A DNA stretch of 64,000 bases from the NCBI RefSeq assembly GCF_003403075.1, contig NZ_CP031557.1, forward strand, positions 806,001 to 870,000, in the 5' to 3' direction. This document shows, in pieces, positions 39,693 to 46,302 of this stretch. The DNA is from Flavobacterium psychrotrophum. Its GTDB lineage: Bacteria; Bacteroidota; Bacteroidia; Flavobacteriales; Flavobacteriaceae. The position numbers and the translations under genes were made by a program. Within the stretch, counting starts at the first letter, position 1, and the number at the start of each line of letters is the position of its first letter. Under the pieces are notes generated by a model that did no database searches, was not told the origin of the DNA, and worked only from the letters and a program-made list of their open reading frames with translations.

Positions 39693-40439
39693 TTACATCA
39701 CCCCCCTCAAAAACTCCTTTTCTCCACCAACCTTTACAGCCTTTAAATAAGCTGTGCCTACAATAACACCATCTACACTCTCAAAAGCAGTTTCCTTTTT
39801 GGCTTTACTGTCAATGCCAAAGCCGATAAATAATGGTGTATCTCCGCAAAGCTGCTTTAGTTCGGCGTAACGGGTACTCAGAGCGCCGCTAATGGCATAT
39901 CCCTGCCCGGTAATGCTGTTTTGCCCTACCAGGTACACAAAGCTGTTAGCGCACGCCTTTGCGGTTTGCTCTACGCAGGCATCAGTAGTGAGGGGTGTAA
40001 TAAGGAACGTAACCGGAACACTATACTTTTCAAATGCTGCCTTATACTTAGTTTGGTATAGCTCCAGCGAAAGGTCAGGAAGTATCAGCGAGGCAATACC
40101 CAGATTTTGGCAACGGCTTAAAAAGGCATCAAGGCCAAATTGCAATACAGGGTTAAGGTAACCCATTAATACTAACGGAATGTGTATTTCATCTTTTGCG
40201 GCTTCAAGCTGTTGCAGCAGAAGTTCTAATTTCATGCCGTTTTGCAGGGCAATGGTACTGGTTTCCTGTATCACAGGGCCATCTGCCATTGGGTCACTAA
40301 AGGGGATGCCTACCTCGGCAAAGTCTACGCCCAGTTCCTGTAGTTGCAGCAATTGTGGTACAAGGCTGTCAATTTCCGGGTAACCGGCAGTTACAAAAAT
40401 ACTGACCTGCTTTTTATCTTTTTTAAACGGATTGTTCAT
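39693..40439 (-). CDS. trpA: Tryptophan synthase alpha chain
   Basis: The 248-residue TIM-barrel subunit cleaves indole-3-glycerol phosphate to indole and glyceraldehyde-3-phosphate. The catalytic residues are Glu42 ([11 protein letters not shown]) and Asp53 (MADGP). It is the last gene of the trp operon, and its start overlaps the trpB stop by 4 bases (ATGA), matching the need for equal amounts of the two subunits. The barrel is slightly shorter than the E. coli enzyme (268). Confidence 0.97.
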
Positions 40440-41626
40440 AGGTTGGGGAATTTTTCCATGTAGGTGTTCATGTCTTTATCGCCGCGTCCACTAAGGTTTA
40501 CCACGATTACATCATTTTTTTTAAGTTCAATTTTAGCCAGAGCCGAAAGCGCGTGCGCACTTTCTAAAGCCGGTATTATGCCTTCAAGCTGCGAAAGTTC
40601 GAGCGCACTTTGTAGGGCTTCGTCATCGGTAATAGGTATGGCTTTTGCCCGCCCGGTTGCAATGGTATGCGCGTGTAACGGCCCAATGCCCGGATAATCA
40701 AGCCCCGCCGAAATAGAGTGCGGCTCGGTTACCTGCCCGTCGGCATCCTGCATTAACAATGTTAGGCTGCCGTGCAAAACGCCCGGCGTACCCAATACAC
40801 TCGTTGCCGCCGACTTGCCTGAATCTATACCGTGACCGGCGGCCTCTACAGCGATAAGTTCAACATCGGGATTATCGTAAAACTGGTAAAAAGCCCCGGC
40901 GGCATTGCTGCCCCCGCCCACACAGGCCACTACCTTATCTGGTGCAGACTTGCCTGTTTTCTCAAACAGTTGTTTCTCAATTTCCTTAGAAATAACCGAC
41001 TGGAAATAGGCCACGATCTTAGGGTAAGGAGCAGGCCCCACCACGCTGCCTATCAGGTAGTACGAATCGGGGTGGTTTATCCAGTGCCGAATGGCCTCGT
41101 TAGTAGCATCCTTAAGTGTCTTGCTACCCGATGTTGCAGGGCGCACTTCTGCGCCAAGCATCTTCATGCGCTGTACGTTAGGTGCTTGGCGTTCAATGTC
41201 TTTTTCGCCCATGTACACTATGCAGTTCAGCCCCATGAGGGCGCAAACGGTAGCTGTTGCTACGCCATGCTGCCCTGCACCGGTTTCGGCAATAATATCG
41301 GTTTTACCCATGTGCTTGGCAAGCAGTATCTGGCCTACAGTATTATTCACTTTATGCGCGCCGGTATGGCACAGGTCTTCGCGTTTCAGGTAAATGTGGG
41401 CAGCATATTTATCAGATAATCTACCTGCATAATACAGCGGAGTAGGTCGCCCTACAAAGTCGCGCAGCAGGTTGGCATATTCGGTTTCAAAGGCTTCGGT
41501 AAAGCAGTAGCTGTTAAAGGCAGCGTCGAGTTCCTCAACATTTGGGCGCAACAATTCCGGTACATACGCACCACCAAATTCACCGTAAAAGCCCAAGCTA
41601 TCTGTATCTAAATAAGATGTGTTCAT
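40436..41626 (-). CDS. trpB: Tryptophan synthase beta chain
   Basis: The 396-residue PLP enzyme joins indole and serine to give tryptophan. The PLP-binding lysine is Lys92 in [10 protein letters not shown]. The phosphate loop is [10 protein letters not shown] (near residue 236), and GRGDKD lies near the end. Indole arrives from TrpA through an internal tunnel. ATGA overlaps join it to trpF upstream and trpA downstream. Confidence 0.98.
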
Positions 41627-42222
41627 AATTCAATATTTTTTAAGAAGTTGGCAAGTTTTGCCACATCTTTTATTTTGGGTTCAATTTCAAAACGGCTGTT
41701 AAGGTCATAACCCGCTAATTTTGGATGCGGAAAATTTTTCAATGCTTCAGCGGAATCAGGCCCTATGCCGCCACTCAAAATAAACGGAGTATCTCCATTA
41801 TAATCTTGCAAAACCTGCCAGTTAAAAGCCGTGCCTGTGCCGCCGTGCTGCTCGCTTTTGGTATCGAATAAAAAGTAATCGGCCAGGGTTTCATAGGTTT
41901 CGGTTGCTTCTAAATCTTTTGCATCGGCTATCCCAAAAACCTTAATAATTTCGATCCCTTTCGGCAATTGCCTTATATATTCAGGCGATTCACTGCCGTG
42001 AAGTTGTACCGTATCAAGGCTATGTTTTTCAATCTGCTCATTCACATAATCCAGCGGTGCATTTACAAAAACACCTACCTTTTTTTTGGATGTAAGAAAA
42101 GTAGTATCGGTAAACCGTTTAGAGCCTTGGAAAAAGATAAAACCTACATGGCTTACCTCTGGCAATGCCGCTACAAGTTGGCTGCTTTCGTTTGCTGTCA
42201 AACCGCAGACCTTAATTATCAT
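41623..42222 (-). CDS. trpF: Phosphoribosylanthranilate isomerase
   Basis: The 199-residue TIM-barrel enzyme converts phosphoribosylanthranilate to CdRP. The catalytic pair is Cys6 (MIIKVCGLT) and Asp120 (YFLFDTK). It is encoded separately, not fused to trpC as in E. coli. ATGA overlaps connect it with trpC and trpB. Confidence 0.95.
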
Positions 42223-42989
42223 GATTTTGTGCTTTTAACCAATGCGGCCAGATGCCCCTCGCGTAAAATGCTTTCGCCAATGAGTGTTCCGCCATAACCT
42301 GCTGCCATAACCGCTGCAATATCTTCTGGCGTTTTAATTCCCGATGCCGAAATAAGCGGTACGTTTTTCGGTAAAATTTTCACTAAGTCAAACGAATGCT
42401 GCAAACTGGTTTGTTGTGCCTTTAAGTCGCGGTTGTTTACGGCGATCAGGTCTACCTCGGCAGGAATAAAGCCGACTTCCTCAGCCGTGTGAACTTCATA
42501 CAAAACCTCTAAGCCTAAGTTACGGGCAACATTGGTAAGATAGGTCGCTTCCTCAGGCTGAAGAACCGCACCAATAAGCAGTACAGCATCGGCACCTATA
42601 GCTCTGGCTTCATACAATTGTATTTCGTTAATAATAAATTCCTTGCGAAGGAGTGGTAACGTAACGGCTTTTCGGGCTTCGATAATATCGTCAATGCTTC
42701 CTCCAAAATAGTCTTTATCTGTAAGAATAGAAATACCTGAAGCGCCGTTTTGTTCGTAGAATGTAGCCTGTTCCACTATATTCACATCGGTTTTAATTTT
42801 CCCCCCACTTGGCGATTTACGCTTTATTTCGGCTATGATACCAAAGCCCGCATCAAGAATATGCTGCTTTAGCGAAATGGTTTCACGACTAAAATTTTCG
42901 CTTTCGCGGAAGCTGCCAATACTGTGAGATTGCTGTAACAGTGCTACTTCCTTGCGCTTGTTTGCTATGATTTCGTCTAATACATTCAT
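42219..42989 (-). CDS. trpC: Indole-3-glycerol phosphate synthase
   Basis: The 256-residue TIM-barrel enzyme closes the indole ring. The signature IIAEIKRKSPSGG (about residues 51-63) holds the catalytic Glu and Lys. Later motifs are LLRKEFIINE and ASGIKTPEDI. ATGA overlaps connect it with trpD and trpF. Confidence 0.97.
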   Translation of the reverse strand: MNVLDEIIANKRKEVALLQQSHSIGSFRESENFSRETISLKQHILDAGFGIIAEIKRKSPSGGKIKTDVNIVEQATFYEQNGASGISILTDKDYFGGSIDDIIEARKAVTLPLLRKEFIINEIQLYEARAIGADAVLLIGAVLQPEEATYLTNVARNLGLEVLYEVHTAEEVGFIPAEVDLIAVNNRDLKAQQTSLQHSFDLVKILPKNVPLISASGIKTPEDIAAVMAAGYGGTLIGESILREGHLAALVKSTKS

Positions 42990-43969
42990 ACGGTTATCTT
43001 TTTAAGATGAGAGATTGCCTTGCCTGAAAGTACTGCTTCGTAGCCTTCGGCGAATGCCTGCTCAAAAGTTTTTTCGGGGCTGAAAGTCTGCAATGCCAAT
43101 GCTACGTTGCCCGCCAATACAATATTCTGTTGTTGTGTGCCTTTTCCTGAAAGTAGGTCAGTCAATATTTTAGCCGAAGCCTCCACGGTATCGCCACCTG
43201 ATATTTCGCTTAGCGTGATGCTTTGCTGTAACGGGTTACCGCCCAAAAGTTCGTCACGTTGCTGGCCTAAAATGCGGGTTACCCCAATAAAGGTCAGTTC
43301 GTCAAAGCCATCCATGCCGTGAAGTATCGTGAATTCTTTTCGCTCGTCTTTCAGAGCGTGCTGGTATTGCTTGGCAAGTTCGAGGGAGTACGTTCCCGTC
43401 AACTGATGCGTGGGGTGGGCAGGGTTAACCAGTGGCCCCATGCTATTAAAAAATGTGGCGATGCCCAAAGCCTTGCGCAATGGTGCCACAGCCTTAAGCG
43501 CAGGGTGAAAGAGTGGCGCGTGCATAAAGCAGATGTTGGCATCGTCAAGCTGTTGTTTCAGGCTGTCGCGGTTGTTTGTAAAGGTATAGCCAAGCGATTC
43601 CAACACGTTGCTTGACCCGCACAGCGAACTCACGCCATAATTACCGTGTTTCACCACCTTGTAACCCAAGCTCGCCAGTACAAAAGCGGTACAGGTAGAA
43701 ATGTTAAACGTGTTCTTGCCATCGCCACCGGTACCACATACATCAATGCTGTTGCCCACATCAAACTTCATGGGCAGGGCAAGCTCCAGTAATGCTTCCC
43801 GAAAGCCCATAAGCTCGTCGAGTTGCAGTCCGCGCATTTGTATGGCAGTCATAATCGCAACGGTTTGCGAATCATTGCTCTCGCCATTGCCTATGCTTAG
43901 CATGCACTGGCGCGCCTCGGCTTTACTAAGGGGTGCACGGGATATTATTTTTTCGAGTATTTGTTTCAT
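42986..43969 (-). CDS. trpD: Anthranilate phosphoribosyltransferase
   Basis: From the ATG at 43969 the enzyme has 327 residues; an ATG at 43984 would add five. It transfers phosphoribose from PRPP to anthranilate. The family motifs VCGTGGDGKNTFN and KHGNYGVSS bind PRPP and anthranilate. It is encoded apart from trpG, with 147 bases holding a repeat between them. Its end overlaps the trpC start by 4 bases. Confidence 0.96.
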   Translation of the reverse strand: MKQILEKIISRAPLSKAEARQCMLSIGNGESNDSQTVAIMTAIQMRGLQLDELMGFREALLELALPMKFDVGNSIDVCGTGGDGKNTFNISTCTAFVLASLGYKVVKHGNYGVSSLCGSSNVLESLGYTFTNNRDSLKQQLDDANICFMHAPLFHPALKAVAPLRKALGIATFFNSMGPLVNPAHPTHQLTGTYSLELAKQYQHALKDERKEFTILHGMDGFDELTFIGVTRILGQQRDELLGGNPLQQSITLSEISGGDTVEASAKILTDLLSGKGTQQQNIVLAGNVALALQTFSPEKTFEQAFAEGYEAVLSGKAISHLKKITV

Positions 43970-43976
43970 TTTTGTG

Positions 43977-44108
43977 TATCGCAAAGTTTCAGAAAGTAGG
44001 CACTAAGTTTCACAAAGCTTTTATTTCTTATTTATCTTAATCAGCAAAGTTTCACAAAGGGAAATTCTTAGCGTTTCTTAGTGCGCTCTTAGTGGTCCTT
44101 TGCGAAAT
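43977..44108. repeat. Imperfect inverted repeat inside the trp operon
   Basis: The left half begins ATCGCAAAGTTTC and contains GGCACTAAG. The right half contains CTTAGTGCGC and ends CCTTTGCGAAAT. Inverted, they match in blocks (CGCAAAG, GCACTAAG) with gaps. It is the same 'cgcaaag...cactaag' repeat type as at 27219. Here it is transcribed between trpG and trpD and would form a long RNA hairpin. Confidence 0.65.
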
Positions 44109-44116
44109 AGCCTAAT

Positions 44117-44707
44117 TTAAAATGTGTCGTTTAAAACGACAAAAGGCTCTCGTATCCAGTTCTCTATCATCGTCCTTCCCTGTGGTGTCAATACCGATTC
44201 GGGGTGAAATTGCACGCCGCTTGTAGGATGACTCGTGTGGCGCAATGCCATTACGATACCGTCTTCGGTTTGGGCGGTTATTTTCAGAAACGGACTGCCG
44301 TTTGGCGTAATCTTCCAGCTGTGGTAGCGGCCTACGGGCAATGTTTGGGGCAGGCCTTCAAATAAAGGGTCATCGGTTAATATGATCATATCGGTAGCTT
44401 TACCATGTACGGGGGCAGGGCACTGCTCCAGGGTTCCGCCAAAAACCTCGGCTATGGCCTGGTGCCCAAGGCATACGCCCAGCATCTTTTTTTGTCCGGA
44501 ATAGCGGCGTATTACTTCCAGCAGTTCGCCTGCCTCACTGGGTATACCCGGGCCGGGAGAGAGCAGTATGGCATCGCAGGTGTCAAGCTCATCATAATCT
44601 ATTTCATTATTGCGTTGCACTATTACCTCTACATTATCTGTTTCTCGCACATAGCGCACCAGGTTGTATACAAAGGAGTCGAAATTATCTATTATACCTA
44701 TTTTCAT
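44117..44707 (-). CDS. trpG: Anthranilate synthase glutaminase subunit
   Basis: The 196-residue class I glutamine amidotransferase supplies ammonia to TrpE. The nucleophile is Cys79 in MLGVCLGHQ, and the His/Glu pair lies in VQFHPESVLTPQG. The LSPGPGIP oxyanion motif is near residue 49. It lies 29 bases after trpE and is followed by a transcribed repeat before trpD. A p-aminobenzoate role is possible for such proteins, but the operon points to tryptophan. Confidence 0.95.
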   Translation of the reverse strand: MKIGIIDNFDSFVYNLVRYVRETDNVEVIVQRNNEIDYDELDTCDAILLSPGPGIPSEAGELLEVIRRYSGQKKMLGVCLGHQAIAEVFGGTLEQCPAPVHGKATDMIILTDDPLFEGLPQTLPVGRYHSWKITPNGSPFLKITAQTEDGIVMALRHTSHPTSGVQFHPESVLTPQGRTMIENWIREPFVVLNDTF

Positions 44708-44736: not shown

Positions 44737-46122
44737 TTATAAAGTTTGGGCAGCAGCGGCAGATACAGCACGGCGCACGGCTCCGAGTTTGTTATTTACT
44801 TCCTGCAATTCATTTTCGGGTACAGAATCCAGTACTATACCGGCGCCGGCACGGTAATGCAACTCGTTATTTTTACTGAAAATACTGCGGATAACGATGG
44901 CAAGGTTCATGTTTCCATCTGTACTTAGAAAGCCTATGGCACCGCCGTAATATCCGCGCGGTGTGCTTTCATACCTGCTTATCAGTTCCAGCGCATTGGG
45001 CTTGGGAGTACCTGAAAGCGTTCCTGCCGGGAAGGTTCCTGAGAACAATGGCAGCGCGTTATTATCTTTCTGTACCTGACCGATTACCTTACTTACTAAG
45101 TGAATGACATGCGAAAAATGCTGCACTTCTTTGTAACTGGCTATCTGTACATCAGTACAAAAACGGCTCAGGTCGTTACGGGCAAGGTCAACCAGCATGG
45201 TATGTTCGGCATTCTCTTTTTCGTCGTTTATCAGGGCTTCGGTATTGCGCATGTCTTGCGCGGCATTACCGGTTTTACGTACGGTTCCTGCAATGGGGTG
45301 TATACTGGCCGTGCCATTACTAAGGCTTATCTGGGTTTCGGGGCTGCTGCCCATAATGCGGTAACTTTCCATATCGGCATAAAACAGGTAAGGGGAGGGG
45401 TTTAGCCTTCGCAGTTGTCTGTACACCTGAAAGTCATCGCCAAAAAATGGCTGCATAAATGGCCGTGATACCACAAGCTGAAATACATCGCCCCTGTAAA
45501 TATGTTTTTTCGCATTACCTACTAAATCAAGAAAATCATCATTGGTTAGGGGAGAGGTTTCTGCACCTTTTACCTCAAAAGGCAACAAGGTAAAAGTCTG
45601 CCTGCGTAGTAGTGCTTCAAAGTCGGTATCGGGCAGCGTTTCTTCAGTTAAAGAATTGCGTAAAATCAGTCCGGTATCATGAAAATGATCGAGTACTATG
45701 AGGTATTCAAACAGTATGAACTGTGCCAACGGGAGTCCGGTCAAGTCTTCTTTAGCAGCCGTTACCGGTTCTTCAAAATGAGCATATTCAAAACTAAAAT
45801 AGCTTAAAAAAGCATTATGGTTTTGCGGGTTTTCAAAGTTGTATTCCGCAATAATTTGCTGTATCTGGTTGGTAACTTTCTTGCGGTTTATTACAGGCCG
45901 AGTGCTGCGTGTACCTGCAACTTCAATGACAATATTATCTGCATATACGCTAATCTCTATCAATGGATTAAGACCAATGTATGAGGTGCTGTCAGCACGG
46001 GAGTGGTAGTCATTACCCTCTAGCAGGCAGGGCTTTCGGTAGTGGTGACGCAGGCCAAGATACAGTCCAACAGGAGTGTAAAGGTCGGCGTTAAAATTAT
46101 ATGTTTGGGTGTATATTTTCAT
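44737..46122 (-). CDS. trpE: Anthranilate synthase component I
   Basis: From the ATG at 46122 the protein has 461 residues; an ATG at 46164 lies inside the attenuator hairpin and is rejected. It makes anthranilate from chorismate using ammonia from TrpG. Chorismate-binding motifs are clear: PSPYLFYADM, PIAGTVRKTG, DLARNDLSRFC and GTLSGTPKPNALELI. At the position of the Trp feedback motif LLES it reads LLEGND, with Gly36 in place of Ser. Expression is predicted to be controlled by the leader peptide and terminator just upstream. Confidence 0.96.
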   Translation of the reverse strand: MKIYTQTYNFNADLYTPVGLYLGLRHHYRKPCLLEGNDYHSRADSTSYIGLNPLIEISVYADNIVIEVAGTRSTRPVINRKKVTNQIQQIIAEYNFENPQNHNAFLSYFSFEYAHFEEPVTAAKEDLTGLPLAQFILFEYLIVLDHFHDTGLILRNSLTEETLPDTDFEALLRRQTFTLLPFEVKGAETSPLTNDDFLDLVGNAKKHIYRGDVFQLVVSRPFMQPFFGDDFQVYRQLRRLNPSPYLFYADMESYRIMGSSPETQISLSNGTASIHPIAGTVRKTGNAAQDMRNTEALINDEKENAEHTMLVDLARNDLSRFCTDVQIASYKEVQHFSHVIHLVSKVIGQVQKDNNALPLFSGTFPAGTLSGTPKPNALELISRYESTPRGYYGGAIGFLSTDGNMNLAIVIRSIFSKNNELHYRAGAGIVLDSVPENELQEVNNKLGAVRRAVSAAAAQTL

Positions 46123-46137
46123 TTCAAATTTGGGTAT

Positions 46138-46169
46138 AAAAAAACGGCTTGCCAAATGTGACAAGCCGT
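46138..46169 (-). terminator. Attenuator terminator upstream of trpE
   Basis: On the minus strand an 8-bp stem (ACGGCTTG / CAAGCCGT) with a 10-base loop is followed by seven T, ending 15 bases before the trpE ATG. A terminator at this place, downstream of a Trp-rich leader ORF and before the first structural gene, is the classic attenuator position. The segment ACGGTTGCC at the end of the leader ORF (46201-46209) can pair with the 3' arm instead (one bulge), which would block the terminator. Confidence 0.88.
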
Positions 46170-46197
46170 GTATACGTTATATAGAGTATATGCGTGT

Positions 46198-46266
46198 TTA
46201 GGCAACCGTCACTGAAGTGTGAAAGTGCCACCACCAAAATTTGTTTGCTGTAGTTGAAGTAATCAT
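46198..46266 (-). CDS. trpL: trp operon leader peptide with three consecutive Trp codons
   Basis: This 22-codon ORF begins ATG at 46266 and ends TAA at 46198. Its peptide starts MITSTTANK, has the core FWWWHFH with three consecutive TGG codons (46228-46236), and ends TSVTVA. Three Trp codons in a row in a 22-residue ORF just upstream of trpE are very unlikely by chance. When charged tRNA-Trp is scarce the ribosome should stall at 46228-46236, leaving 46201-46209 free to pair with the 3' arm of the terminator. When Trp is plentiful the ribosome reaches the stop codon, covers that segment, and the terminator forms. This mechanism is inferred from geometry; the ORF itself is seen directly. Confidence 0.9.
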   Translation of the reverse strand: MITSTTANKFWWWHFHTSVTVA

Positions 46267-46270
46267 AACT

Positions 46271-46302
46271 CAAATGTATGAAAGTGTTTTTTAATGGGCA
46301 AA
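46271..46302 (-). promoter_or_regulatory. trp operon promoter (Bacteroidota type)
   Basis: On the minus strand TTTG (46302-46299) and TACATTTG (46278-46271) are separated by exactly 20 bases, an exact match to the TTTG / TAnnTTTG consensus. The -7 box ends only 4 bases before the leader ATG at 46266. Transcription should therefore begin at or within a few bases of that ATG, giving a leaderless or nearly leaderless leader peptide. Confidence 0.82.

Follow-up and report, generated by a model that had tools for sequence, protein, structure and literature searches.

On its minus strand, the window, by which we mean the whole stretch of 64,000 nucleotides of Flavobacterium psychrotrophum DNA that was analysed, carries seven genes that by family matches follow a hairpin in the order trpE, G, D, C, F, B and A. 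These are trpE for anthranilate synthase component I (44737..46122), trpG for a glutamine amidotransferase (44117..44707), trpD (42986..43984), trpC (42219..42989), trpF (41623..42222), trpB (40436..41626) and trpA (39693..40439). With regard to the NCBIfam functional cut-offs, G, D, B and A scored above (TIGR00566, TIGR01245, TIGR00263 and TIGR00262, respectively) and E, C and F below: trpE is divergent, with 384 bits against a TIGR00564 cut-off of 517.7, trpC with 258.4 bits came slightly below its cut-off of 260, and trpF reached 135.7 bits at best, below a cut-off of 215.

Upstream of these trp genes, on the same strand, lies the kind of short ORF with consecutive Trp codons that is looked for in an attenuator. 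This putative leader peptide ORF, MITSTTANKFWWWHFHTSVTVA (46198..46266), has 22 codons, with the ATG at 46266 and the stop codon at 46200–46198, and is predicted to be leaderless; that it holds three consecutive Trp codons, as stated in a preliminary description of this DNA, was confirmed in the sequence. These presumed regulatory codons (46228..46236), which appear as WW or WWW in relatives, are followed 15 nt past the last of them by the start of a candidate antiterminator segment, GUGACGGUUGCC (46201..46212). Next comes the hairpin ACGGCUUGUCA/CAUU/UGGCAAGCCGU (46144..46169, −16.6 kcal/mol), in which 11 pairs, eight of them continuous Watson–Crick pairs topped by U-G, C-G and A-U, enclose the loop CATT of the DNA, and then a tract of seven U residues (46138..46144), the first of which doubles as the final stem base. 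A gap of 15 nt separates this tract from the trpE ATG (46122). Both the seven U residues and the 15 nt had been given before, together with a hairpin length of 8 bp that we score as 11 bp instead. By sequence and fold, the hairpin qualifies as an intrinsic terminator separating the leader from trpE: folding of 46190–46135 gave a z-score of −5.95, equalled by none of 200 shuffles. Terminator-like sites over 12 kb were no more frequent than in shuffled sequence (13, with a shuffle mean of 12.9), and the weight therefore rests on the strength, position and conservation of the hairpin. Taken as a whole, the arrangement very probably allows a leader with Trp codons to switch the operon off by an early stop of transcription when tryptophan is plentiful.

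The promoter was also considered. The sequence TACATTTG (46271..46278, minus strand), 4 nt before the leader ATG, fits the −7 box of Bacteroidota sigma-A, TAnnTTTG, without a mismatch, and TTTG, a candidate −33 element (46299..46302, minus strand), lies 20 nt before that box. Because the flavobacterial −7 box sits at −12 to −5 (PMC9723704) and is here 4 nt from the ATG, transcription is predicted to start at the A of the leader ATG (46266) or within 1–2 bases of it. According to the same source, Flavobacteria initiate translation without a Shine–Dalgarno sequence, their primary sigma factor is an unusual one, and in F. psychrophilum 5.5% of the mapped mRNAs are leaderless, with a median 5′ UTR of 24; the ilvB leader of C. 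diphtheriae offers a leaderless precedent outside the phylum (PMC5784534).

The antiterminator segment can pair with either side of the terminator. GUGACGG (46212–46206) pairs with UUGUCAC (46164–46158), and GCC (46203–46201) with GGC (46167–46165), thereby using the 5′ arm and loop. As the preliminary description had it, 46201–46209 is also complementary to the 3′ arm (ACGG:CCGU plus UUGCC:GGCAA, with one bulged G). For the window alone, RNAduplex gave −13.0 kcal/mol for 5′ arm plus loop and for loop plus 3′ arm alike, and 22% of non-cognate terminator apices paired as well with the window leader, its own helix thus not being above chance. The relatives decided the matter. For each of the ten distinct clade members (L111 being excluded from this count as a repeat of L034), the duplex of leader and 5′ arm plus loop had −9.4 to −15.1 kcal/mol, whereas that of leader and loop plus 3′ arm, at −13.0 kcal/mol in the window, reached only −3.2 to −7.8 kcal/mol in the nine other members, with −5.3 kcal/mol in the nearest relatives, L031 and L032. 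The pair GUGAC:GUCAC recurs in L031–L036 and L108, with compensatory changes to AUGAC:GUCAU in L037 and to GUGAU:AUCAC in L038, the latter taken from the raw sequence since MAFFT misaligned the leader segment of that locus. In L034 and L036, an earlier stop codon places the antiterminator segment behind the stop and the pairing is still kept, so that the RNA itself seems to be under selection. Alignment of relatives, proposed in the preliminary description as a check, found the WW or WWW codons and the hairpin to be conserved and revealed compensatory changes in the clade.

These data support the view, drawn from the sequences of the relatives, that the antiterminator of the window clade uses the 5′ arm and loop of the terminator, which is the classical side. 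An otherwise identical attenuator, in which ACGG and UUGCC of 46209–46201 would pair with the 3′ arm (46144–46153), could appeal to the equal duplex energy in the window and to the phylum at large, where 3′ arm plus loop helices are the best in 63 of 120 loci (helix score at least 12, see below), but we regard it as improbable: it has the weak energies of the nine other clade members against it, and it depends on the 3′ arm, the last part to be transcribed. It was consequently set aside for the window clade in view of these energies and of the covariation on the 5′ arm. The earlier proposal of a 3′-arm antiterminator is hence not upheld for the clade, nor is the departure from the E. coli layout that was attached to it. 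That a stalled ribosome would expose an alternative antiterminator helix is in agreement with the clade covariation, the energies and a permutation test across the phylum described below.

We also determined how widely the leader is kept. A TrpE search of 100 related genomes, including the genome studied here, gave 60 TrpE-type matches (E < 1e-90), all of which were examined; the remaining genomes had weaker PabB-like matches or none. A WW leader with a terminator, as defined by the script, was found directly upstream of trpE at 56 of the 60 loci, the window's own counted, and at 68 of 81 further loci, which comprised the best 80 of 447 from a named-genome scan and L111. The leader region of L111 is identical to that of L034, and that of G157, from the same genus, to that of Flavobacterium sp. 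Sd200. The four loci lacking the unit among the 60 were L002, having a WWW leader but a weak hairpin, L011, L136 and L139. Among the 13 of the second set, L062 and L109 are truncated by a contig end, L106 has a WW leader with a hairpin outside the script filter, L041, L078 and L092 carry the unit before a trpB-like gene, and L045, L047, L049, L058, L068, L093 and L101 have, by eye, single-Trp-codon leaders (in L049 two Trp codons, non-adjacent). In L011, as in L041, L078 and L092, the trpB-like gene preceded by the WW leader and terminator itself precedes trpE (gene order by eye).

Could the Trp codons be incidental, the hairpin acting as a terminator or mRNA-processing signal without any sensing of Trp? 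Genome-wide there are 64 occurrences of the pattern TGGTGGTGG, fewer than the 104 of a reversed control pattern, and such strings are therefore not rare in themselves. Against this, the short WW or WWW ORF recurs at those 56 of 60 trpE loci despite diverged sequences, and the WW unit stands before the trpB-like gene at loci with that gene ahead of trpE, so we hold this explanation to be very unlikely. Much the same low probability is given to the idea that the hairpin controls the start of trpE translation rather than transcription. Its distance of only 15 nt from the trpE AUG in the window would suit such a role, but the hairpin is followed by a run of U, its stem does not include the trpE start, and relatives differ widely in the spacing between hairpin and gene, on which grounds translational control was set aside. 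Control by TrpR, TRAP or a T-box was rejected, as none of these had a match in the genome at E 0.001 (150 of 183 first-look T-box candidates having been scored), while the searches were positive in control genomes (n=14; TrpR found in 2, TRAP in 1 and T-box in 5).

With the unit conserved in relatives and TrpR, TRAP and T-box without a match in the genome, ribosome-mediated trp attenuation, the central proposal of the preliminary description, is supported. There is accordingly high probability, as far as sequence can tell, that the region, sensing charged tRNA-Trp by way of the ribosome, acts as a transcription attenuator for the predicted operon trpEGDCFBA. Transcription would start at or beside the leader AUG, as promoter spacing suggests, and a ribosome could then load as soon as RNA emerges. 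When Trp is scarce, the ribosome would stall on the three UGG codons and leave 46212–46201 free to pair with the terminator loop and 5′ arm (46158–46167) before the 3′ arm is made, whereupon RNA polymerase should read through. With ample Trp, it would instead reach the stop codon (46200–46198) and the ribosome would cover the antiterminator segment, so that the 11-bp terminator could form and transcription would presumably end before trpE.

Folding of the two states, also suggested in the preliminary description, agreed with this in one respect and qualified it in another. On the assumption that a ribosome covers 13 nt counted from the first base of its A-site codon onwards, stalling at any one of the three Trp codons left RNA that, before the 3′ arm is made, folded into the 5′-arm helix with −11.0 kcal/mol. 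At equilibrium, the terminator (−16.6 kcal/mol) beats either antiterminator and the full-length RNA prefers the terminator, and the switch must therefore be kinetic and work by timing. A widely kept flavobacterial control of trp seems to hinge on the relative timing of ribosome and RNA polymerase, and a leader that begins at its AUG together with an antiterminator aimed at the terminator apex would be a simple and testable answer to that timing problem.

To analyse the wiring throughout the phylum, the best helix between leader and terminator apex, defined as the loop and 7 bp of each arm, was scored for 128 units found by script; loci without a unit have no place in this scoring. A helix score of at least 13 was obtained for 111 of the 128 units, and the helix started 11–20 nt past the last Trp codon in 100 of these 111 (in 94 at 12–20 nt). 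For comparison, among non-cognate pairs of representatives scoring at least 13, the start fell at 12–20 nt in 375 of 837. Cognate helices had a mean score of 15.5 vs 11.0 (sd 0.39) for permuted leader–apex combinations, with none of 20000 permutations equalling the cognate value (50 dissimilar representatives), and the result was again 0 of 20000 with 28, 15 and 10 more strictly chosen representatives, by helix score as well as by RNAduplex energy. In Bacteroidota, as read from these sequences, a leader segment about 11–20 nt past the Trp codons matches the apex of its own terminator, on either arm.

Regarding the arm used, the 120 loci with a score of at least 12 included, apart from the 63 with a 3′-arm helix, 56 with a 5′-arm helix and 1 with a helix to the loop only. 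The 3′ arm plus loop gave the best helix in other Bacteroidota, including the other loci tested from the same genus. On a quick TrpE tree, the 45 rows with an assigned side, many of them near kin, need at least six changes of side; helices of only 4–5 bp make the side weak evidence for several loci, above all in Chitinophagaceae. Such changes of arm show how an attenuation switch can be rewired in evolution. We would give about even chances to the broader proposition that the trp attenuators of Bacteroidota have an architecture of their own, in which a leaderless or nearly leaderless leader ORF is combined with a short antiterminator, about 11–20 nt past the Trp codons, that nucleates on the terminator loop and invades either arm, the plan being kept through the arm changes on the TrpE tree and serving his, and perhaps phe, in the genome of the window as well.

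Promoter spacing was then compared among relatives. The exact box at 4 nt is shared by the window, L034–L038 and L108, and L031–L033 have a box with one mismatch at 4 or 5 nt. Among 94 first units, the box was exact in 63, had one mismatch in 27 and was absent in 4, and the exact boxes (n=63, distances measured from all in-frame ATGs) lay at 4 nt in 19 cases, at 5 nt in 4, at 7–10 nt in 27 and at 15–23 nt in 13. With control ORFs collected mechanically from 400 kb of the same genome, the box alone, among sequences with an exact one, occurred at 4 nt in 23 of 87 trp leaders vs 6 of 92 control ORFs (p 4e-4), and within 10 nt in 56 of 87 vs 13 of 92 (p 3e-12), both p-values being uncorrected for kinship among the leaders. 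The strict promoter, with TTTG or TTG at 19–21 nt, was present at 8 of 359 own-genome ORFs, and with this small control Fisher's test gave p 0.67 for 4 nt and p 0.21 for up to 10 nt; another strict-promoter control, of 3 ORFs only, gave p 0.56 and p 0.023, respectively.

The attenuator is of a kind already known, with wiring that follows the rule seen in relatives. It most likely belongs to the Bacteroid-trp kind, in the catalogue since 2010 as RF01692, but its 23 bits fall short of the Rfam cut-off of 49; the best Rfam match of the region by E-value is RF00513, Trp_leader (E 0.0069), also below its cut-off with 25.4 bits against 41. Like the window, RF01692 comes from Bacteroidota, being described in Rfam as a cis-regulatory Bacteroidete tryptophan peptide leader RNA. 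Because its consensus ends within the 5′ arm of the terminator, a helix of the leader with loop plus 3′ arm is beyond what it can describe. Its cut-off was reached by 3 of 16 chosen relative loci with the unit (L010, L023 and L102), and many members may therefore go unnoticed. The motif appears in a table row in Weinberg et al. 2010 (PMC2864571), and a 2019 paper mentions Bacteroid-Trp as resembling the E. coli leader and conserved upstream of the trp operon of F. psychrophilum (PMC6414381). A 2021 transcriptome of that species (PMC9723704) describes strong signs of attenuation by leader peptides in front of amino-acid operons, and cites pheA and hisG as having conserved 5′ elements; in its main text, neither trp nor tryptophan occurs. 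A 2010 survey of attenuators was aware of no leader peptide system demonstrated beyond Proteobacteria and Actinobacteria, apart from the Firmicutes example that it added itself (PMC2965389).

Proteobacterial trp leaders of the E. coli trpL type (RF00513; PMC1183508) have in common with the window the Trp codons, the alternative antiterminator and terminator hairpins and the U-tract, as well as an antiterminator on the 5′ arm, and differ from it in that the window has a short helix as antiterminator, a leader predicted to be leaderless and no TrpR match. For trpL of Sinorhizobium meliloti, the transcript likewise starts at the leader ATG and trp genes are controlled by attenuation (PMC7298713), but that system is from another phylum and its start is established, whereas the start in the window is predicted. 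Predicted leaderless leader mRNAs, apex-directed antiterminators and tandem attenuators appear little described in the open-access literature searched, in which the term 'tandem attenuators' was met in the title of the Salmonella mgtCBR work and in stray mentions elsewhere.

Tandem WW-leader and terminator units stood upstream of trpE at five of the 60 loci (L003, L004, L021, L024 and L127), four of them counted by script and L024 by eye, its second unit lying outside the script filter; L141 was excluded, as both of its WW pairs lie in one ORF. In L021, each of the two units has a loop pairing of its own, GGGTT:AACCC and GGATTC:GAATCC. Some of the variant leaders were inspected further. Before the trpB-like gene, the leader motif TCGTGAG of L041, L078 and L092 has by eye a matching CTCACGA on the loop and 3′ arm of the terminator, which is not the case in L011. 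The Chitinophagaceae L045, L047, L058, L068, L093 and L101 have seemingly one Trp codon (GWHT, YWHHN) before a GCCCCG terminator, and in these leaders the Trp run seems to have eroded although the plan persists. L136 and L139, whose genomes measure about 0.6 Mb, have a hairpin with a U-run before trpE but no WW leader, as if the sensor had been lost.

The relationships of TrpE suggest an unusual origin of the operon. The protein of the window is 71–77% identical to those of a small Flavobacterium group and 60–63% to those of Fluviicola, but only 40–46% to other TrpE of the same genus found in the related-genome search, and 2 of 398 genomes of the genus, its own included, matched it at 1e-140. 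The TrpE proteins of the window clade (L001, L031, L032, L034–L036) formed one side of a branch together with Fluviicola L037 and L038, at an SH-aLRT of 100. A tree joining the TrpE of the window clade with other Flavobacterium was rejected, its log-likelihood being 219.5 lower, and still 218.6 lower upon removal of the long-branched L021, L051 and L065. These were quick trees with a midpoint root or none, made without L014, which has an in-frame stop, and without L033, L039, L064, L095 and L108, whose translations were too short, and the separating branch is long (1.11), the tool warning of long branches meeting. Horizontal replacement, in which the trp operon was transferred together with its attenuator, is a likely and the simplest reading of these sequences; the operon thus seems to have moved between families along with its own control.

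Other amino-acid loci of the same genome were also inspected. A quick look at the ilvD and homoserine dehydrogenase loci revealed no clear leader. Upstream of hisG (L162, G000:C1 near 623843), we observed a His leader, MFINQLHHHHFSTGSNAR, with a terminator and no relevant Rfam match, in which the leader segment GCTCAAACG has its pairing partner, CGTTTGAGT, in the terminator's 5′ arm and loop, on the same plan as for trp. Upstream of pheA (L163, G000:C1 near 102822), a Phe/Tyr-rich leader, MYTTSFYNTYFYFFWKEDGGCMAV, is likewise followed by a terminator, with a possible short helix CGGGG:TCCCG.
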